A stretch of 64,000 nt of DNA from an uncultured Gammaproteobacteria bacterium (GTDB lineage Bacteria > Pseudomonadota > Gammaproteobacteria > Eutrophobiales > Eutrophobiaceae), in contig CALSOP010000001.1 of assembly GCA_943788005.1 (NCBI GenBank), positions 124,001 through 188,000 of the forward strand, given 5' to 3'. Positions within the stretch are counted from its first letter, which is position 1. Each line of letters opens with the position of its first letter. Positions 8,952-17,410 of this stretch are shown in pieces. The position numbers and the translations under genes are program-made. The notes under the pieces are model-generated. The model did no database searches. It saw only the letters and a program-made list of their open reading frames with translations, and had not been told where the DNA came from.

Positions 8952-9950
8952 TCAATAGGTTATGTGCTTCACTTGTTGTTTATCGTAATGCATTTGTCGT
9001 CTCATCGCTAACGTGTTTTGTTTGATTAGCTCTCGTTGACTTAGTATTTCTTCGCCACGCCCATAAAAGACATCAGCCGGTGTCAGGTTATCAAGTGATT
9101 CATGATAACGCTCATGGTTGTAATAACTCACAAAACGCTGCAACTGTTCCTCCAGTTCCCCGGGGAAATAATAGTGGTGAAGTAATATCTGATTCTTCAT
9201 TGAACGATGCCAGCGCTCTATCTTGCCTTGTGTTTGTGGATGATAAGGTCGACCTCGAGTGTGCGTCATACCGTTTTCTTCAAGGTAATCGGCTAATTCA
9301 CCGGAGATATAACACGGGCCATTGTCACTGAGTAAACGCGGTTTATGATTTACCTTTACTGTATCAAGTCCCGTAAAGCGTAAGGCGTCATCCAGCGTAT
9401 CAGAGACATCACGGCTACTCATGCCCGTACATAAACGCCAGGCAATAATGTAACGTGAGTAATCATCTAATACCGTGGATAAGTAATACCAACCCCAACC
9501 GATAATCTTGAAATAGGTAAAATCCGTTTGCCACATCTCATTCACGCGCGTAGTGGGCTGTTGAAACTTATCACTGGCCTCCATCAGGATATAGGCCGGA
9601 CTGGTAATTAAGTCTTGTTCTTTCAGCAGCCTGTACACCGTGGATTCTGAGACGAAGTAAGCCTTGTTGTCAGTGTAATTTACGGCTAACTCTCGTGGAG
9701 ACAAATCAGGCTTCTCTAAGGCTAACTCAATAACGGCTTCACAGTGGTCTTCGGTGATTTTATTCCATACCGCATGGGGAATCGGCTTCTTGTCTTCCAA
9801 GCCATCAACGCCATTCTCTTCATAACGTTTGAGCCAGTTGTAAAAAGTGGACTTATGAATGTCCAGCCGAGTCAGCGTTTGTCGAACCGACAGATCTGAG
9901 TTCTGTACCAGTTGAATAATCTCGACTTTATCCGATGCTAAGTACCTCAT
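8952..9950 (-). CDS. IS3-family transposase OrfB, copy 2
   Basis: A 332-aa protein identical to OrfB of copy 1: N-terminal HTH followed by a DDE integrase core with WQTDFTY, LLSDNGPCY and GKIERWHRS. Its ATG overlaps the orfA stop (ATGA). It is intact, so both copies could supply active transposase. The identity of the two copies makes this pair a substrate for homologous recombination across the mutS segment. Confidence 0.93.
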   Translation of the reverse strand: MRYLASDKVEIIQLVQNSDLSVRQTLTRLDIHKSTFYNWLKRYEENGVDGLEDKKPIPHAVWNKITEDHCEAVIELALEKPDLSPRELAVNYTDNKAYFVSESTVYRLLKEQDLITSPAYILMEASDKFQQPTTRVNEMWQTDFTYFKIIGWGWYYLSTVLDDYSRYIIAWRLCTGMSSRDVSDTLDDALRFTGLDTVKVNHKPRLLSDNGPCYISGELADYLEENGMTHTRGRPYHPQTQGKIERWHRSMKNQILLHHYYFPGELEEQLQRFVSYYNHERYHESLDNLTPADVFYGRGEEILSQRELIKQNTLAMRRQMHYDKQQVKHITY

Positions 9951-10309
9951 ATATCGTCCTCCCCATCCCCGAGCACGCTTTTTTTAAGCAGCCGATTCTC
10001 CATGACTACTTCGCCTAAGGTTTCTTTCAGCGCAGATGTTTCAGCACGCAGTTCTTTGACTTCATCTGAGGTCGCTTCACGTACGATATCGCCTGATAAA
10101 CGTTTCTTACCTGCCTCCAGAAAGTCTTTCGACCAACGGTAGTAAACATTTGGGTTTAGTCCTTCCTTGCGACATAGCTCAGCGATGCTTTCTTCGCCAC
10201 GTAAGCCTTCAAGTACGATACGAATTTTTTCTTCTGCTGAATATTTTTTACGGGTGCGTCGACGAATATCGCGCACAGTATGTTCTACACTTCTTTTACT
10301 TGTCATCAT
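9947..10309 (-). CDS. IS3-family transposase OrfA, copy 2
   Basis: A 120-aa HTH protein identical to OrfA of copy 1, with the same C-terminal zipper-like helix. It would be transcribed from the right end of the element, near 10340-10390, towards the left, as in copy 1. Confidence 0.9.
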   Translation of the reverse strand: MMTSKRSVEHTVRDIRRRTRKKYSAEEKIRIVLEGLRGEESIAELCRKEGLNPNVYYRWSKDFLEAGKKRLSGDIVREATSDEVKELRAETSALKETLGEVVMENRLLKKSVLGDGEDDI

Positions 10310-10393
10310 CGTTTCCTCTTGGGTTAACGATGAACTAAAACTATCTCTTAGACAATCAGGCTAGTTGGTCCACATGGTGCTGACGGGGTACAA

Positions 10394-10933
10394 GTAATTT
10401 ATAATACGGCAAAAGCAGATCCACAATGTCAGGGCATGGGCACAACCATCGTCGTTGGCCTCTTCCACAACAACGTTTTATCAATTGCGCATGTCGGGGA
10501 TTCACGACTTTATCGAATAAGAAACAACGAGTTACAACAAATAACCAAAGACCACTCTTTGATACAGGAATTGATTGACCGAGGGCTTTACACCTCAGAA
10601 GAAGCACATGCTAATACACCGAAGAATCTGGTCACTCGTGCAATGGGAATTGAAGCTGATGTCGATGTTGATGTGGTCGAAGAAGTGGTTTTACCTGACG
10701 ATATTTACCTGCTTTGTTCGGATGGATTAACAGATCTAGTAAAAGATGAAGAAATTCACTTAACCCTAAGTAAATATAGTGCTAATCTTGCACAAACAGC
10801 AGATGAATTAATGAAATTTGCGAACAAAAGAGGGGGCAAGGATAACACCTCAATAATATTGGTGCGTATCCGGGAAGAGTTTTCTTCACCCAAGGGTTTT
10901 TTAACAAAAATTAAAAATCGATTTATTAAATGA
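10394..10933 (+). pseudogene. PP2C-type Ser/Thr protein phosphatase, N-terminus removed by IS
   Basis: The frame is open from the IS end (VIYNTAKADPQCQGMGTT) through 10933, about 179 codons. Visible PP2C motifs are GMGTTIVVGLF, IAHVGDSRLYRIR, QITKDHSLIQELIDRG, YLLCSDGLTDLV and GGKDNTSIILVRI. The family is usually about 240-260 aa. The missing first 70-90 residues would hold the early metal-binding acidic residues and the DGMGG-type motif, so the remnant should be inactive. The ORF-track ATG at 10436 is internal. The next gene encodes an FHA phosphothreonine reader, so an intact kinase/phosphatase/FHA unit probably existed here. Confidence 0.85.
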
Positions 10934-10955: not shown

Positions 10956-11651
10956 ATGGCGAAGTTAGTTCTGAGCATGAATGGCGTCGTTCAAGGCGAA
11001 TACGAACTCAATCAGGAACGATTGACCATAGGGCGTAAGCCTGACAACGACATACCAATAGATAATCTAGCGGTTAGCGGTAAGCATGCCTTGGTAATTA
11101 CCATACTTGATGATTCCTTTCTGGAAGATCTTGGTAGTACTAATGGCAGCTACGTTAACGGTAAACTTGTTAAAAAACACGCACTTAAAGATGGTGATGT
11201 TATTGCCATTGGTAAGCATGAGCTCAAATATGTAAACGAGCATGCAACCGCTGATGATGACGATTTTGAAAAAACCATGATCATCAAACCTGGCTCGGCC
11301 AGCGCTGCAGTTGCTGCCGCACAAGCTGCCGAAAAAGCTGTTGAATCTGCTGCCCCTGCTGCTGCTGCACCACCAGCCGGCGGTGGTATGCCATTAGGCC
11401 GCCTAACGGTCTTAAATGGCCCAATTGCAGGCAAAGAACTGGAATTAACCAAGGCGTTGATAACCTTAGGTAAACCAGGCACTCAAGTCGCCGTCATTTC
11501 ACGTCGACCTCAGGGTTACTTCCTGACACATATTGAGGGTAACAATTTTCCTCTGGTCAACAGTGAACAAATCGGCGCAAAGGCCTATCAGCTAAAAGAC
11601 AGTGATCTGATTGAATTGGCCGGCATCAAGATGGAGTTTTCATCTGCATAA
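10956..11651 (+). CDS. FHA-domain protein
   Basis: A 231-aa cytosolic protein. Residues 1-90 are a forkhead-associated domain that binds phosphothreonine peptides: LTIGRKPDNDI, NLAVSGKHA and DLGSTNGSYVNG are the standard GR, SxxH and NG motifs. A low-complexity Ala/Pro/Gly linker (about 105-145) follows. The C-terminal 85 residues (GRLTVLNGPIAGKELELTKALITLGKPG) look like a second, degenerate FHA fold without the SxxH signature. The gene follows the PP2C remnant after 22 bases with GGGGAT/AGGA upstream. With the phosphatase broken, its regulation may be altered. A strong terminator follows. Confidence 0.9.
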   Translation: MAKLVLSMNGVVQGEYELNQERLTIGRKPDNDIPIDNLAVSGKHALVITILDDSFLEDLGSTNGSYVNGKLVKKHALKDGDVIAIGKHELKYVNEHATADDDDFEKTMIIKPGSASAAVAAAQAAEKAVESAAPAAAAPPAGGGMPLGRLTVLNGPIAGKELELTKALITLGKPGTQVAVISRRPQGYFLTHIEGNNFPLVNSEQIGAKAYQLKDSDLIELAGIKMEFSSA

Positions 11652-11687: not shown

Positions 11688-11723
11688 AAAAACGGGCCAA
11701 TCACTTGATTGGCCCGTTTTTTT
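11688..11723. terminator. Bidirectional rho-independent terminator
   Basis: AAAAACGGGCCAATCA and TGATTGGCCCGTTTTTTT are perfect complements with almost no loop, flanked by A-runs and T-runs, so the hairpin can end transcription both from the FHA gene (plus) and from the Mla operon (minus). It overlaps the lipoprotein stop codon by two bases. Confidence 0.92.
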
Positions 11724-12315
11724 AGTCCTTGATAATTTCAACAAGATCGACATAGAAATCGTTAAATATTAAATCTACTGCCTCTGCAAATGCTTTAATT
11801 GCATTTGCAATATTGTTGGATGGTAATGCCACAGTCTGTACATACTCTTTATGTAAAATTGGGGCATGTTTGAAATTAGAATTAACCTGAAGCAATAATT
11901 TCACATAAACACTTTCACTGCCTTTTTGTTGCAATCGCTCAAAGGCTTTAATTTGTCCCTTAATGATAAATTCACTATTACCTTCAAACGTATTTAAAAC
12001 TAATTTTGAGATATTACTCAAACGTAACCTTTCGGCCAGACGTTCTTGTAGTAATCTGCTCGGAGAATCGGTCCAATGGTGATAATGATATTGTTTTAAC
12101 TCTATCTCATCTTCAGTATAGAGGATTGCACGTTCCTGATATAAACCCTCTGTCTGAAATGTAATGACACTAATTGAACCCACCCGCTGCTCATCAGGGT
12201 TAACATCGCTTAATCCAGGCAGACGGTAATAATGATCTGTTGGTAGCGGCGCTTGGCTGGAACAAGCCATCAATATTAAAAAACAATACAATAAAATACT
12301 ACAGCGCATGATCAC
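11722..12315 (-). CDS. PqiC-like ABC-type transport auxiliary lipoprotein
   Basis: A 197-aa protein starting with a signal peptide that ends in a lipobox (LILMACSSQ), so it should be lipidated and probably sent to the outer membrane. The mature part (HYYRLPGLSD, LLQERLAERLRLS, AIKAFAEAVDLIFNDF) matches the DUF330/PqiC type of auxiliary lipoprotein that accompanies MCE transporters. It overlaps the MlaD gene by four bases (ATGA-type) and is the last gene of the Mla operon. In this operon it stands where MlaC would be in E. coli; no MlaC or MlaA is present. Role in lipid hand-over at the outer membrane is inferred. Confidence 0.78.
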   Translation of the reverse strand: MIMRCSILLYCFLILMACSSQAPLPTDHYYRLPGLSDVNPDEQRVGSISVITFQTEGLYQERAILYTEDEIELKQYHYHHWTDSPSRLLQERLAERLRLSNISKLVLNTFEGNSEFIIKGQIKAFERLQQKGSESVYVKLLLQVNSNFKHAPILHKEYVQTVALPSNNIANAIKAFAEAVDLIFNDFYVDLVEIIKD

Positions 12316-13322
12316 TCAACCTCTTCAACTTGAGCTGAACCACGAATAAGCAAACCCGGATTTTCTTTAATCTGTCTCGTGAACTCATGAATATTTCGAC
12401 TACTCCCTTCAAGATGATGAGTAATAGCATCTATATGCGTAGACATTACCGACAAGGTCTTTTGTAGGTCAGTTAGTGAAGCGCTCATTTTTCCATCATT
12501 ATCTTCAAGCATGTAATTAACATCTCCAATGACATTATCAATATTACTCAAGAGCAGGTCCATTGACTTCCTCGTATTATCGATATTGGCGACTAACTCA
12601 TTCATTCCTGTTGATGCGTTACTCATATTATCTAAAAAAGTTGTTAAGTTTGTCTGGTTTTGACTATTAAATACCTTTTGCAGATCTTCCGATGTCTGAT
12701 TCAAGTTAGTAATTAACGTATCTATCTTACTAACCATATCAGTCTGCTCGACCTGATTACTAAAATTTTCAAGTAATGGCTTGATCGTATTTCTAGTGAT
12801 ATCGGTCAGTTCTGTTGACACAGAAATAACCTGCTTATTTAGATTATCCAATAATGGTTTTATGCTACTTTGAGACAGATCACGAAGATCTGATGCTACT
12901 TCATTTACCGTCGCAAAAATATTAGCCGCTTCTTTACCTGTTATTTCTGATCCCGGCTCAAGCAAGACATCACTGCTTCCTTCTGCAATATCAATAGTCA
13001 CTGCGGCGAGTAAACCGGAGGCAACTATTTTGGCGAGACTATCGACAGGTATAGCCCATTCTTTTTCTATGGACAACGTTAAACGATAATTTGTTTTACC
13101 CTCTTCCCTGATGGGTTCAATTATTTCAACCTGCCCAACTTGATAGCCTTCAAACGCCACCGGAGTCCCGTATTTAATACCTGAAACATTATTGTAGGTA
13201 ACATAATATTTTTCTGTCGGACCATTACTACCCATTAATTGATAAAGAAACACAAAGAAGCTAAGCAGTACAATGATGACAAAAGATCCTACAACAAGGT
13301 AATTAATATTATCGCGTTTCAT
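12312..13322 (-). CDS. MlaD-like MCE-domain lipid-transport protein
   Basis: A 336-aa periplasmic protein anchored by one N-terminal helix (YLVVGSFVIIVLLSFFVFLY). One MCE domain follows (about 35-125: VSGIKYGTPVAFEGYQVGQV, ASGLLAAVTIDIAEGSSDVLLEPGSEI). The C-terminal 200 residues are a long helical, coiled-coil-like stretch rich in Asn, Thr and Ser. E. coli MlaD is about 183 aa, so this is the longer form seen with PqiC-type partners. It should form a hexameric ring on the MlaFE complex and pass phospholipids across the periplasm. Nine bases separate it from mlaF. Confidence 0.87.
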   Translation of the reverse strand: MKRDNINYLVVGSFVIIVLLSFFVFLYQLMGSNGPTEKYYVTYNNVSGIKYGTPVAFEGYQVGQVEIIEPIREEGKTNYRLTLSIEKEWAIPVDSLAKIVASGLLAAVTIDIAEGSSDVLLEPGSEITGKEAANIFATVNEVASDLRDLSQSSIKPLLDNLNKQVISVSTELTDITRNTIKPLLENFSNQVEQTDMVSKIDTLITNLNQTSEDLQKVFNSQNQTNLTTFLDNMSNASTGMNELVANIDNTRKSMDLLLSNIDNVIGDVNYMLEDNDGKMSASLTDLQKTLSVMSTHIDAITHHLEGSSRNIHEFTRQIKENPGLLIRGSAQVEEVE

Positions 13323-13330
13323 AATCTTTG

Positions 13331-14131
13331 CTACACACCTGTTAATCGATTTAAATATTCATCTGCTTGCACTTCATCATTACTGGGTCGTCGATTTAAT
13401 AATGATTGTATTCGTTCGTTGTCAGAATTTTTTATATTTTCTACTGTATCCGTCATCAGAATATTACCTTGATCAAGCACGGTAATTCTGTCAGCAATTT
13501 TAAAAGCACTCTCTAGTTCATGCGTAACAACAACGATCGTCATTTTCATTGCATCTCTTAGATTTAAAATAAGCTCATCCAACTCAGCAGAAACAACCGG
13601 GTCAAGACCTGCGGAAGGCTCATCGAAGAACATCAATTTTGGATCCATGACGATGGCGCGAGCAACGGCAGCGCGTTTAATCATGCCGCCGGATAACTCT
13701 GCCGGCATTAACTTTTCAAAGCCTCCAAGATTAACGACCTCAAGCTTCATTCGGGCCATGATCTCCATTGTTTTTTCATCGAGGTGCGTATGTTCGCGTA
13801 ATGGTAATTGAACATTTTCACCAATAGACATTGAACTTAGTAATGCCCCGCCCTGAAATGCGACACCCATATTCTGTCTCAGTTGATGCATTTCTGTATT
13901 ACTGATTTTGGTAATATCCTTGCCAAGTAAATTAATACTGCCGCTGGTAGGAATACCAAGTCCAAGTAAATAACGTAACAATGTACTTTTACCCGAACCA
14001 CTACCGCCCATGATGATCATTATCTCACCTTCATTAATGGTCAGATTAATGCCGTGCAAGATTTCACGTGGGCCGTAATGCGTTACCAAATCGATAACTT
14101 CAATAGCTGCACTATTATTATTTGCCATCAT
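13331..14131 (-). CDS. mlaF: MlaF-like ABC transporter ATPase
   Basis: A 266-aa ATPase of the lipid-transport ABC complex. Walker A GGSGSGKSTLLR, Q-loop VAFQGGALLSSMS, signature LSGGMIKRAAVAR, Walker B LMFFDEPSAGLDP and H-loop VVVTHELES are all present. The LSGGM(I)KRAA form of the signature is typical of the Mla/Ttg2A/Mkl family. It lies directly downstream of mlaE (stop and start adjacent) and upstream of the MCE gene, as in mla operons. Function in phospholipid trafficking and outer membrane asymmetry is inferred from family. Confidence 0.93.
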   Translation of the reverse strand: MMANNNSAAIEVIDLVTHYGPREILHGINLTINEGEIMIIMGGSGSGKSTLLRYLLGLGIPTSGSINLLGKDITKISNTEMHQLRQNMGVAFQGGALLSSMSIGENVQLPLREHTHLDEKTMEIMARMKLEVVNLGGFEKLMPAELSGGMIKRAAVARAIVMDPKLMFFDEPSAGLDPVVSAELDELILNLRDAMKMTIVVVTHELESAFKIADRITVLDQGNILMTDTVENIKNSDNERIQSLLNRRPSNDEVQADEYLNRLTGV

Positions 14132-14956
14132 TTACAAATTTAAAAAATAAGTAAAAATCATATCAGCAATGACGATATATGAAATTGAAAGAACTACGGA
14201 ACGTGTTGTAGCCTTACCAACACCTTCTGCGCCTCCTGTCACGGAAAAGCCATTGCTAACACCAACCAAAGTAATAATTAAGGCAAAGAGAAGACTCTTG
14301 AATATTCCCTGCATCACATCTGCCACGGCCAAAGCTGATACGGTCCTATCTATATAAGCATCGAAACTCAAGCCGATTTCAATACTTGTATATACTGCGC
14401 CGCCTAACAGACCAGCCAGATCAGAGAAAAAAGTCAATACGGGAACCATAATCATCATTGCAAACAAGGCTGGAGCAACCAGATATCTTACTGGGTTGAT
14501 TCCCATTACGCGTAATGCATCTATCTCTTGATTGACTTGCATAGTGCCTATTTTTGCTGCCAATGATGAACCTGTCCTGCCGGCAATCAGAATACCGGTT
14601 ATTAATGGACCAAATTCTCTGGTGACAGATAATGCTACGCCAACGACAACCTGAGATTCAGCACCGAATGTCTTTAGGTTATAAATCATTTGAATTGCTA
14701 ACATGACGCCGATTGAAAATGACAGAACAAAAACAATCGGGCAAGCTGCTATGCCCATTGTCATCATTTGCGAAAAGATGGATGAAATGCGAACTGGCCG
14801 TTTTATGAATGGACCGGCTAAGATCCAGAAGAGTGATTCAACTAATAAAGCAGAGTAGTAACCCGCTTCTTCTATCAGCTTTACGGTTGAACGGCCAACG
14901 AGTTCTAATGAGTTAATTACTGGATGAGTAGCGGATTCAGGCATCCTCTTTTTCAA
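14132..14956 (-). CDS. mlaE: MlaE-like lipid ABC transporter permease
   Basis: A 274-aa integral membrane protein of the MlaE/YrbE family. Segments include CPIVFVLSFSIGVMLAIQMI, FGPLITGILIAGRTGSSLAA, YLVAPALFAMMIMVPVLTFF and VVLSISYIVIADMIFTYFL. The conserved EIDALRVMGINPVRYLVAP loop couples the permease to its ATPase. It is a little longer at the N-terminus than E. coli MlaE (260 aa), which resembles the permeases that carry a short STAS-interacting extension. It overlaps the STAS gene by 20 bases, so the two are likely translationally coupled. Confidence 0.92.
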   Translation of the reverse strand: MKKRMPESATHPVINSLELVGRSTVKLIEEAGYYSALLVESLFWILAGPFIKRPVRISSIFSQMMTMGIAACPIVFVLSFSIGVMLAIQMIYNLKTFGAESQVVVGVALSVTREFGPLITGILIAGRTGSSLAAKIGTMQVNQEIDALRVMGINPVRYLVAPALFAMMIMVPVLTFFSDLAGLLGGAVYTSIEIGLSFDAYIDRTVSALAVADVMQGIFKSLLFALIITLVGVSNGFSVTGGAEGVGKATTRSVVLSISYIVIADMIFTYFLNL

Positions 14957-15269
14957 ACTCTGCTACAGAATCATGTATTGGAAAAACTTTATCAAGCCGC
15001 GCTAATTTCAAGACACTCATCGCAGCATCACTAACACCAACCAGACCAAACTTTAAAGCCTGCTTTTTTGCTGTCTGATAACCTTCAACCAGACTGGCAA
15101 CTCCTGAACTATCTATATAACTTACCTTGCCTAGATCAATTAACAGATTTTTGTTTGTTTGTAACACGTCAAGAATACTTTTCCGAGCATCGGGTGAACA
15201 AGATAGATCGACATCACCTTCTAACCCAATAATCGTATACCCTTCCCCTTCCAGTGTATTGATATTCAT
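14937..15269 (-). CDS. STAS-domain protein (MlaB / anti-sigma-factor antagonist type)
   Basis: A 110-aa STAS domain. The antagonist signature is LIDLGKVSYIDSSGVASLVEG, with the serine of DSSG at the place that RsbV/SpoIIAA-like proteins have phosphorylated. In E. coli MlaB the STAS protein binds MlaF and is needed for the complex. Here the gene sits exactly between mlaE and an RsbW-like kinase gene (22 bases away), so it could serve both as MlaB and as the substrate of the kinase/phosphatase pair upstream. That double role is inference from position and the intact serine. Confidence 0.85.
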   Translation of the reverse strand: MNINTLEGEGYTIIGLEGDVDLSCSPDARKSILDVLQTNKNLLIDLGKVSYIDSSGVASLVEGYQTAKKQALKFGLVGVSDAAMSVLKLARLDKVFPIHDSVAEFEKEDA

Positions 15270-15291
15270 GCTTAATACTCACGTTTTATTA

Positions 15292-15720
15292 TTAACTTAT
15301 TTTTTTTGTCATCTCGAGGTAGTTTCCATTTCCCTCCTCAAGATGTCCCCTGTCACATTCATCCATTATCTCGTTAATGAAGTGTGTTCCCAGCCCACCC
15401 GGTCGTATATCGTCAAGATCACGAGGCTTGACTGAATCTAAATCTATCGGATTCGCATAGTCCACTATTTTGAAATGAACCTTGCCGTCATTATTGAGCA
15501 TTTGCAGCACAATTTCACCCAATTCATCACCCTTATAGGCGTGTTGAATGACATTCATACAGGCTTCATTAACAGCAATCACCAACTTATCCGTTAATTC
15601 AGAACAACAACCCACTTCATCGGCCGTTTTCTTTACCAATGCCCGCACTTCACATAAGCGTTCCGCTTTAGCCGGAAATTGAATTTCAAATAAGGTTTCG
15701 ACACTCATTTCAAACAACAC
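15292..15720 (-). CDS. RsbW/SpoIIAB-like serine kinase (HATPase_c)
   Basis: A 142-aa GHKL-ATPase of the anti-sigma/switch kinase type. N-box VIAVNEACMNVIQHAY, G1 box KIVDYANPID and G2 box RPGGLGTHFINEIMD are visible. Such proteins phosphorylate a STAS antagonist on serine and sequester a partner. The track start is MLFEMSVET; the second Met (15708) is equally possible. It overlaps the phosphatase gene by 16 bases and is followed by the STAS gene, so the three elements of a partner switch lie together. No sigma factor gene is adjacent; the sequestered partner is unknown. Confidence 0.87.
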   Translation of the reverse strand: MLFEMSVETLFEIQFPAKAERLCEVRALVKKTADEVGCCSELTDKLVIAVNEACMNVIQHAYKGDELGEIVLQMLNNDGKVHFKIVDYANPIDLDSVKPRDLDDIRPGGLGTHFINEIMDECDRGHLEEGNGNYLEMTKKIS

Positions 15721-16991
15721 TCGATCACCATAAGAGTAATATCATCATGTTGCTGAGCATTTGGATGCCGTATCTTTGCAACAATATCTTCCAATCGCTT
15801 TGATGCTGTTACTTCCGAGTTTTCTTCAATCAGTTTAATCAAACCGCCTACATCTAATAATTTCTGCTCATGATTCAGACTCTCAGTAACACCATCTGTA
15901 AAAATATAAACTGAACCACCATCAAGCTTAATGGTTGAAACAGGGAATTCAGTGCCTGGCAAGATACCAATCGGCGGTGCGCCTGCTTCTATTTCCTCAA
16001 ACTCACCAGAACAGTGATGAAACAATGGCGGTTGATGCCCCGCATTAGAATATTTAATCGTGCATGTATTAGTATCAATAAAGCCTGAAACAATGGTAAC
16101 AAACATACCATGTGAAACGGTTTCGCAGATCTCATCATTAACTCTGGCTAATAATTCTCCTGGATCACTAATATCTTTGGCTAAGTGATGCAATAAGCTG
16201 CTCGCTTTTGCCATTAACATGGCCGCATTCATGCCTTTGCCAGACACGTCCGCCAAATTGAAATAAATTAATCCATCATCACGCTGAAAAAAGTCATAGA
16301 AATCCCCAGATACTTCTAAGGCTGGCACATTCATACCATTAACAGGAAAATTAGTGACATCGGATATGTCGGGCAAAAGATCGAGTTGTATTTCTCTCGC
16401 CAATTCAAGTTCTTTGCGCATACGTTCTTGCCCAACTAAGGCATCTGCCATACGTGCATTATTTATAGCTAAAGCTGCATAAGAAGCTAATGCCATTGAC
16501 AAGTGCTTGTCTTGATCGCCGAAGAGGTCATCGTTCTTCTTATTTAATAACTCCAGTGCACCAATACATTCATTGTTAACGATTAATGGGACACAAAGAA
16601 TCGAACGCGTACGAAACCCAGACCCCATATCAACCTTTTTCGAAAAGTCAGGATCGCTTTGTACATCACGAATCATCTGACTGCTGCGTGTCGTTACTGT
16701 CTTACCAACAATGCCTTGTGTTGAAGATAGCCTTAAACCAGTTATATCGACAGGACCTGCACACTCAACACATACCAGTTCATGAGAATCAGTTTCTAAT
16801 AAAAATATTGATGCAGCTTCAGCATTCATATATTCCATGAATTGCGCAATTGCATTGTTTAAGGTCTGCGAAATATCCAACGTACTTGAGAAACCTTGAG
16901 AGATTTCGGCTAATAGCGCGAGCTGTTCTTCAAGTGAATGTGATTCACGCTTTTCAAATAAACTGTATACATTACGTTTTGACATCAGCAA
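15705..16991 (-). CDS. GAF-domain SpoIIE/RsbU-type PP2C phosphatase
   Basis: A 428-aa protein with a GAF sensor domain (about 30-190, FSSTLDISQTLNNAIAQFME ... ALELLNKKNDDLFGDQDKHL), a linker helix (ERMRKELELAREIQLDLLPD) and a SpoIIE phosphatase domain. Metal ligands appear in VSGDFYDFF, LADVSGKGMNAAM, YIFTDGVTES and QHDDITLMVIE. The role would be to dephosphorylate the STAS antagonist in response to a ligand or redox signal sensed by GAF. A start at the second Met (16985) would avoid most of the overlap with the DUF1841 gene. No transmembrane segment is seen. Confidence 0.9.
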   Translation of the reverse strand: MLMSKRNVYSLFEKRESHSLEEQLALLAEISQGFSSTLDISQTLNNAIAQFMEYMNAEAASIFLLETDSHELVCVECAGPVDITGLRLSSTQGIVGKTVTTRSSQMIRDVQSDPDFSKKVDMGSGFRTRSILCVPLIVNNECIGALELLNKKNDDLFGDQDKHLSMALASYAALAINNARMADALVGQERMRKELELAREIQLDLLPDISDVTNFPVNGMNVPALEVSGDFYDFFQRDDGLIYFNLADVSGKGMNAAMLMAKASSLLHHLAKDISDPGELLARVNDEICETVSHGMFVTIVSGFIDTNTCTIKYSNAGHQPPLFHHCSGEFEEIEAGAPPIGILPGTEFPVSTIKLDGGSVYIFTDGVTESLNHEQKLLDVGGLIKLIEENSEVTASKRLEDIVAKIRHPNAQQHDDITLMVIECCLK

Positions 16992-17410
16992 GCCTTATTC
17001 AAGCATTCTAAATAGTCATCATCATTTGGTAAGGCATTATTACGTTGCGCTTCCCATAATATGCGTCCAAGACATTCCATCATTTTATGTTCTGCATCAT
17101 GAGTAGAATTGGATTTACTCATTATTTTTTTATAAGCATCATTAATACCCGTCGGCCTATTAGAACTTACTTGTTCTTTTAATGCGATATGCATCCCCAT
17201 ATGTAAAAAAGGATTTGTTTCATTTTGTTCAGGACTAAAATCATTTTCCTTTGATGATTCTTTCACTTCAAGATAATGGTGATATTCAGGGTGCTCCATA
17301 ATTACATCAGAAATAATCGCCTCTATCGGTTCTAATGGAAGCTTATTTTTTTGCTTACTCCATACCTGGTAAAAGTAGTTACGTGCCTCATCTCGATCTT
17401 GAACAAACAT
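16985..17410 (-). CDS. DUF1841 family protein
   Basis: A 141-aa cytosolic protein of unknown function. It matches the DUF1841 pattern of gamma- and betaproteobacteria: an N-terminal RDEARNYFYQVWSK, the stretch IMEHPEYH, and the conserved core NPFLHMGMHIALKEQVSSNR followed by AEHKMMECLGRILWEAQR. It overlaps the phosphatase gene by seven bases and may be the first gene of the whole switch-Mla operon. Elsewhere this family is often near nth; here nth lies just upstream on the same strand, 61 bases away. Confidence 0.85.
   Translation of the reverse strand: MFVQDRDEARNYFYQVWSKQKNKLPLEPIEAIISDVIMEHPEYHHYLEVKESSKENDFSPEQNETNPFLHMGMHIALKEQVSSNRPTGINDAYKKIMSKSNSTHDAEHKMMECLGRILWEAQRNNALPNDDDYLECLNKAC

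Follow-up and report, generated by a model that had tools for sequence, protein, structure and literature searches.

We analyzed a 64,000-nucleotide stretch of DNA (the window) from an uncultured gammaproteobacterium of the family Eutrophobiaceae (GenBank assembly GCA_943788005.1, contig CALSOP010000001.1, positions 124,001 to 188,000 of the forward strand). At 11722-17410 its minus strand carries a run of genes that Pfam and NCBIfam models assign to a DUF1841 protein, a GAF-SpoIIE phosphatase, an RsbW-type kinase, a STAS protein, MlaE, MlaF, MlaD, and a PqiC-like lipoprotein (Table 1). We refer to the phosphatase, kinase, and STAS protein as the triad. We propose, with a probability of about two in three, that the STAS protein is a phosphoregulated MlaB and that the triad is a partner switch with an ABC lipid transporter as its output, not a sigma factor. 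The gene content and order, their conservation, the exclusivity of the triad in the window genome, and its association with one MlaF subfamily carry this proposal.

The operon and its recurrence across genomes

The original prediction described one minus-strand run with overlaps or very short gaps; rereading the starts on the sequence bore this out, together with the gene set, and added the DUF1841 gene, which lies inside the stretch and had not been named. The SpoIIE gene starts at ATG 16985 and overlaps the DUF1841 stop by 1 nucleotide (nt). The kinase gene starts at ATG 15708, in an ATGA that overlaps the SpoIIE gene by 4 nt, and is followed by the STAS gene after a gap of 22 nt. The mlaE gene starts at ATG 14944 and overlaps the STAS stop by 8 nt, through which it is predicted to be translationally coupled to STAS. 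A gap of 8 nt separates mlaF and mlaD, and the PqiC-like gene, with a GTG start, overlaps mlaD by 4 nt. No sigma factor is encoded in the operon, which has the transporter genes there instead. It also encodes neither MlaC nor MlaA and has the PqiC-like lipoprotein instead. The assignment of this lipoprotein is weak by Pfam alone, but its lipobox is present and it occupies the same place in relatives.

The switch proteins keep their key residues. The PPM motifs of the phosphatase (GDFYDF, DVSGKG, TDGVTE, and DD) are intact, and in an alignment of the SpoIIE family D230, D248, G251, D366, D416, and D417 are invariant, so the metal-binding acidic residues are kept. In the kinase, the N-box NEACMN and the RPGGLG motif are invariant among 23 relatives, and the first glycine of the DxG box is alanine in all 23 (D87 and A89 are invariant). 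The intact DSSG serine that had been read in the STAS protein is indeed there, within YIDSSG, and the motif DSSG recurs in 149 of 150 STAS sequences. The predicted phosphorylatable residue is the first serine of this motif, residue 54. In 30 cases a single open frame encodes the kinase and the phosphatase as a fusion. The phosphatase sensor varies (GAF in 34 of 46, HDOD in 12 of 46), and the STAS and transporter genes are constant. The transporter has its own hallmarks: MlaF has the signature LSGGM and a C-terminal tail ending in ADEYLNRLTG, and MlaD is a protein of 336 amino acids with an N-terminal membrane helix, one MCE domain, and a helical C-terminal part of about 190 residues, which is a long helical part in an AlphaFold2 model of low confidence (pLDDT 63).

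We then asked how often this arrangement recurs. Relatives were mostly metagenome-assembled genomes (MAGs), and our counts are raw, ignoring shared ancestry. In public genomes, a kinase profile matched 418 relatives; the best 80, a set biased to close relatives, were kept and include Rhodospirillales and Magnetospirillum-like Alphaproteobacteria. Named relatives with this locus are MAGs that carry the label Thiotrichaceae or Gammaproteobacteria. (Two records titled Klebsiella pneumoniae, L093 and L108, bear a Thiotrichaceae-like locus, and these MAG labels look wrong.) When 369 genomes from across the class were searched with a STAS profile, 62 matched; 58 of these scored at least 99 bits, and the next score was 69. 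Among 40 loci taken from this list, the kinase was present in 39, and mlaE or mlaF stood beside STAS in 35; one locus (L172) meets a contig edge inside mlaF. Altogether, 118 nonredundant kinase-STAS loci were gathered from the Gamma- and Alphaproteobacteria. Mla genes were adjacent in 94 and not in 19, and 5 were cut by a contig end. We estimate that unrelated genes would adjoin mla genes by chance about 1 time in 1,000 (about 2 mlaE genes per 3 Mb). An order that recurs in these proportions is not a chance one, and the test of co-occurrence that the original prediction had called for came out strongly positive.

Within the order, the kinase was found in 32 of 53 genomes, all of one family, and always adjoined SpoIIE and STAS (a 33rd match, in G018, is not of this family). 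Among nonredundant loci of the family, mlaE, mlaF, mlaD, and pqiC follow STAS in 16 and are absent from 14; outside the family, the arrangement varies far less than within it. DUF1841 is the usual neighbor of the module in Gammaproteobacteria. A search of a plasmid collection for relatives returned distant matches only, and a phylum-wide sample added little because it was dominated by well-sampled groups.

The window genome is a 2.41-Mb draft, 85.5% complete. It has one stand-alone STAS protein; three other matches lie in open frames of 497 to 549 amino acids, which we read as SulP transporters. It also has one small RsbW-type kinase, with the other HATPase_c_2 matches in large open frames. 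A second STAS protein or kinase that might be the true pair was sought in this 85.5%-complete genome, and none was found, including the separate STAS substrate that the original prediction had named as the finding that would undo it. The four other intact SpoIIE phosphatases of this genome are encoded away from any STAS or kinase gene and were rejected as members of the switch for that reason. The absence of a second STAS protein or kinase and the co-occurrence across genomes support the earlier suggestion that one STAS protein may serve both the switch and MlaF.

MlaF-T as the probable partner of the triad

The window genome has two MlaE genes, the operon copy and one in an unlinked mlaF-mlaE-mlaD locus with a convergent mlaC-like gene. 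We looked for an mlaB gene belonging to the unlinked MlaFED, but there was none near the locus and no second STAS_2 match in the window genome. This locus and 20 further loci of the family are mixed operons, in which a window-type MlaF accompanies MlaE and MlaD of the canonical type and no mlaB gene was found beside them. (The operons of mixed ancestry are L010 and L212-L231; in L010 mlaC is convergent, on the other strand.) In a tree of MlaF sequences, triad-linked MlaF and the unlinked MlaF of the mixed operons form one clade (support 96), which we named MlaF-T, and the MlaF of operons with their own mlaB lies far apart (support 100). The two groups also differ in their C termini. The MlaF-T tail reads R(I/V)xxLLxR followed by (D)ADxYLxxLT, whereas MlaF from mlaB-bearing operons has an E. 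coli-like tail, DGPVxFHYPAxDY, and MlaF beside STAS-MlaE fusions has none. In E. coli, MlaF is the subunit that MlaB binds, and the MlaF tail docks where the two proteins meet (PMC7367683).

Four loci combine the triad with genes of the canonical pathway: mlaF-mlaE-mlaD-mlaC in L119, mlaF-mlaE-mlaD-mlaA-mlaC in L178, and mlaE-mlaD-mlaA-mlaC in L190 and L191, where mlaF is on the other strand. Against models of the window-type proteins, their MlaE scores 134 to 149 bits (300 to 470 for the window type) and their MlaD about 39 bits (240 to 450 for the window type), so both are of the canonical type. Their MlaF, at 404 to 456 bits, scores like the window type. Because STAS goes with MlaF-T across MlaE types, MlaF-T appears to be the constant partner of the triad STAS, whatever the type of MlaE. 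Canonical operons in the same family encode an MlaB with NSAG, DSAG, or a similar motif, and no kinase adjoins them. (In L209, from the triad-less genome G048, a canonical mlaF-mlaE-mlaD set with its own STAS/mlaB gene has a SpoIIE-type phosphatase gene immediately upstream, perhaps a second, independent phosphatase-mla link.)

Presence and absence across genomes tell a similar story. Of the 53 family genomes, 32 have the triad, and 31 of these also have MlaF-T at a threshold of E <= 1e-80; of the 21 that lack the triad, 3 have MlaF-T (Fisher p = 3.6e-10, uncorrected for ancestry). The triad was found in none of the 15 genomes of the family set that lack any MlaE. Paired loss of triad and MlaE was seen beside congeners that keep both, once in genus g1 (G049) and in two genomes of g16 (G032 and G033). 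G007 is the one triad genome whose MlaF-T is not intact (L070 and L232): its unlinked MlaF-T gene has a deletion that spans the Walker B region, its mlaE has an in-frame stop, and it is also the only family genome with a frame-broken STAS gene (L070). This is either parallel decay or poor MAG sequence. The co-loss with MlaF-T, the kinase-phosphatase fusions, and the independent joining of the triad to canonical mla operons are further support from beyond the window.

On the triad tree, the loci that have no mla genes next to the triad turn up in scattered places, nested among mla-bearing loci and with about nine state changes, a pattern suggestive of repeated loss. In L049, L057, and L061 a gene for a CHASE2-cyclase stands directly after STAS, where it follows PqiC in L096, a placement that looks like the result of a deletion of the mla genes. 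An unlinked MlaF-T usually remains after the linked mla genes are lost. Outside the family, G392, G095, and G235 likewise lack adjacent mla genes and have an unlinked MlaF-T.

Proposed mechanism and competing explanations

From published work on E. coli MlaB and the operon anatomy described here, we infer STAS phosphorylation, STAS-MlaF binding, the direction of the effect, the lipid substrate, and the signal. In E. coli, the MlaFE complex requires MlaB for its stability; Thr52 of MlaB matches the phosphoserine of SpoIIAA and lies at the center of the MlaF interface, and a T52E change weakens MlaF binding (PMC5016091, PMC7367683). By analogy, the dephosphorylated STAS protein would bind MlaF-T at its helical face and C-terminal tail and thereby assemble or activate the MlaFE(D) lipid ATPase, turning transport on. 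The RsbW-type kinase would bind the same face of STAS, for which kinase and MlaF would compete, phosphorylate Ser54, and remove STAS from MlaF, turning transport off. When its sensor is triggered, the GAF- or HDOD-SpoIIE phosphatase would strip the phosphate, and transport would resume. It is also possible, and we suggest it tentatively and at somewhat less than even odds, that one phospho-STAS is shared by two transporters, the linked MlaEFD-PqiC and the unlinked canonical-type MlaFED without an MlaB of its own.

Several observations weigh against a phosphoregulated MlaB. The STAS protein is nearer in sequence to RsbV and TM1442 than to MlaB. Its AlphaFold2 model (pLDDT 91) has an RsbV-like fold, with TM-scores of about 0.82 to 0.88 to TM1442, RsbV, and SpoIIAA and of 0.63 to 0.69 to MlaB. 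It passes the anti-sigma antagonist model TIGR00377 but not the MlaB family model NF033618 (29 bits, cut-off 90). The STAS model also has an extra C-terminal helix (102-108), unlike the minimal STAS fold of E. coli MlaB, which has Thr52 where the window protein has a serine. The protein is thus of the RsbV type and stands in the place of MlaB. The helix-2 residues A58, L60, E62, and Q65 are invariant also at loci without adjacent mla genes or without MlaF-T, which makes them unusable as an MlaF signature. In E. coli MlaB, a T52A change also kills activity, so changes at this site are hard to read. Across genomes, MlaF-T occurs without the triad in three genomes of the family (G046, G048, and G025), the triad lacks adjacent mla genes in the 19 loci noted above, and five genomes outside the family (G364 and G797-G800) have the kinase and STAS without MlaF-T. 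At the loci of these five the phosphatase gene beside the kinase is also gone, which may mean that the switch is decaying there or has been put to another use. Given these 19 loci and five genomes, the transporter is probably the main client of the triad and not the only possible one.

Some features of the STAS protein were tried as markers and set aside. Comparison of STAS proteins with and without adjacent mla genes gave no clear difference that would mark a lost MlaF contact. A58 and E62 failed as a general mark of MlaB, since Pseudomonas MlaB lacks them. Two loci (L129:6339-7034 and L134:8432-9127) have two tandem STAS genes between the kinase and mlaE, both with DSSG, and the roles of kinase substrate and MlaF partner are possibly split between them. 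Six lineages (L108, L113, L136, L147, L175, and L099) have a kinase-STAS pair but no phosphatase gene to separate the kinase from DUF1841 or Nth, and MlaF-T is absent from the genomes of five of the six.

The strongest competitor is that the triad is a mere neighbor, which acts on another target such as a sigma factor, has a promoter in common with the mla genes, and leaves the transporter untouched. The RsbV-like sequence and fold of STAS, the persistence of the triad where no mla genes adjoin it (about nine separate state changes on the tree), and the five genomes without MlaF-T would all fit. However, the order is conserved in two classes, the operon encodes no sigma factor, and the triad has become attached again to operons whose MlaE is of another type and to MlaC and MlaA. 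It pairs almost exclusively with one MlaF subfamily, and the five exceptions have also lost the phosphatase beside the kinase. We therefore consider this explanation unlikely. We give considerably less credence to the idea that the main output is the CHASE2 adenylate/guanylate-type cyclase at the operon end, with lipid transport secondary. There is a precedent for STAS switches that govern cyclases (SiaC-SiaD of Pseudomonas aeruginosa), and a CHASE2-Guanylate_cyc gene follows PqiC or directly follows STAS in 26 of the 118 loci. Yet the gene is absent from the window locus, from about three-quarters of all loci, and from nearly all alphaproteobacterial and HDOD-type loci, and mlaE or mlaF beside STAS is far commoner.

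Slightly less probable again is that STAS is a constitutive, structural MlaB and that the kinase and phosphatase act on another protein. This would account for its MlaB-like place before MlaE, and STAS-MlaE fusions exist elsewhere (PMC12436622). However, the window genome has no other stand-alone STAS substrate, the kinase accompanies STAS in all but one of the 40 STAS-profile loci, and the DSSG serine is invariant where the canonical MlaB proteins of the same family, with no adjacent kinase, have NSAG, DSAG, or similar.

The surroundings of the module also hold signaling genes. On the other strand it faces a conserved Ser/Thr signaling set that includes an FHA protein and a PP2C phosphatase (window 10956-11651, and also L042, L046, and L096), and a CHASE2-protein kinase joins this set in 11 of 118 loci. 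In the window, an IS3-type element with two overlapping open reading frames (8952-10436) has cut the gene for a Stp1-like PP2C phosphatase, and what is left of it (10397-10930) starts at about residue 98 of 275. In some relatives (for example, L042) a CHASE2-protein kinase gene stands before PP2C; no such gene was found in the window.

Table 1. Features of the operon (window coordinates) and examples of the cyclase gene (coordinates of the named loci)
Feature	Position	Strand	Model matches and remarks
DUF1841 protein	16985-17410	-	PF08897 2.9e-54; first gene of the run; position conserved in relatives
GAF-SpoIIE (PPM) serine phosphatase	15705-16985	-	PF07228 5e-44; GAF 5e-14
RsbW/SpoIIAB-type serine kinase	15292-15708	-	PF13581 8.5e-26; RsbW models under cut-off
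STAS switch protein	14937-15269	-	PF01740 3.2e-17; TIGR00377 over cut-off
MlaE permease	14132-14944	-	PF02405 1.8e-71; TIGR00056 over cut-off
MlaF ATPase, MlaF-T subfamily	13331-14131	-	PF00005 4.5e-32; best model PRK11831 (MlaF), under cut-off
Long MlaD	12312-13322	-	PF02470 4.7e-12
PqiC-like lipoprotein	11722-12315	-	PF03886 3.5e-5, 23.9 bits (cut-off 26); lipobox LMAC
CHASE2-adenylate/guanylate cyclase (examples)	L096:12413-14662; L049:1928-4174; L108:8454-11081

Relation to known systems and meaning

The triad resembles SpoIIAA-SpoIIAB-SpoIIE and RsbV-RsbW-RsbU in having a DSSG STAS protein, a GHKL serine kinase, and a sensor-bearing PPM phosphatase encoded in one operon, and the STAS model superposes on RsbV and SpoIIAA. 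Unlike those switches, it has genes for an ABC lipid transporter in the place of a sigma factor gene. Partner switches that act on something other than a sigma factor are already known. In SiaABCD of P. aeruginosa, a switch protein controlled by a kinase and a phosphatase acts directly on an enzyme and not on a sigma factor, but the target is a diguanylate cyclase rather than an ABC transporter.

The transporter half resembles E. coli MlaFEDB, whose MlaF likewise bears LSGGM and a C-terminal extension and whose operon joins MlaE, MlaF, and MlaD to a STAS protein. However, the E. coli operon has no STAS kinase or phosphatase, and the window operon differs from it in its long MlaD, its PqiC-like lipoprotein, and its lack of mlaC and mlaA. 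It may also resemble Mpc, the chimeric Mla-Pqi system of Brucella abortus, which has MlaE and MlaF homologues, a long MlaD, and a STAS domain that belongs to the transporter, and which forms a membrane bridge without MlaC (PMC12436622). In Mpc, STAS is fused to MpcE, whereas in the window it is a separate gene that overlaps mlaE, and no kinase or phosphatase is reported for the four-gene mpc operon (PMC12436622). Phosphorylation of MlaB at Thr52 has been proposed to control Mla, but those studies had no kinase or phosphatase in hand and left the matter open (PMC5016091, PMC7367683). In the open-access literature, we found no description of an Mla operon that includes a STAS kinase and phosphatase (subscription journals and preprints lay outside the search). 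What appears to be new is the presence of this set in an Mla operon and its unusual conservation; the parts themselves are known.

A STAS kinase and phosphatase stand in an Mla-type operon across dozens of lineages in two classes. If the STAS protein is a phosphoregulated MlaB, the triad would be a direct posttranslational switch for envelope lipid transport, and the ABC transporter would be a new output class for partner switching. The operon would also offer a ready test system in which the genes, the site, and the predicted direction of the effect are known. If STAS is shared by the two transporters as well, one kinase and one phosphatase would govern the lipid traffic of both at once.

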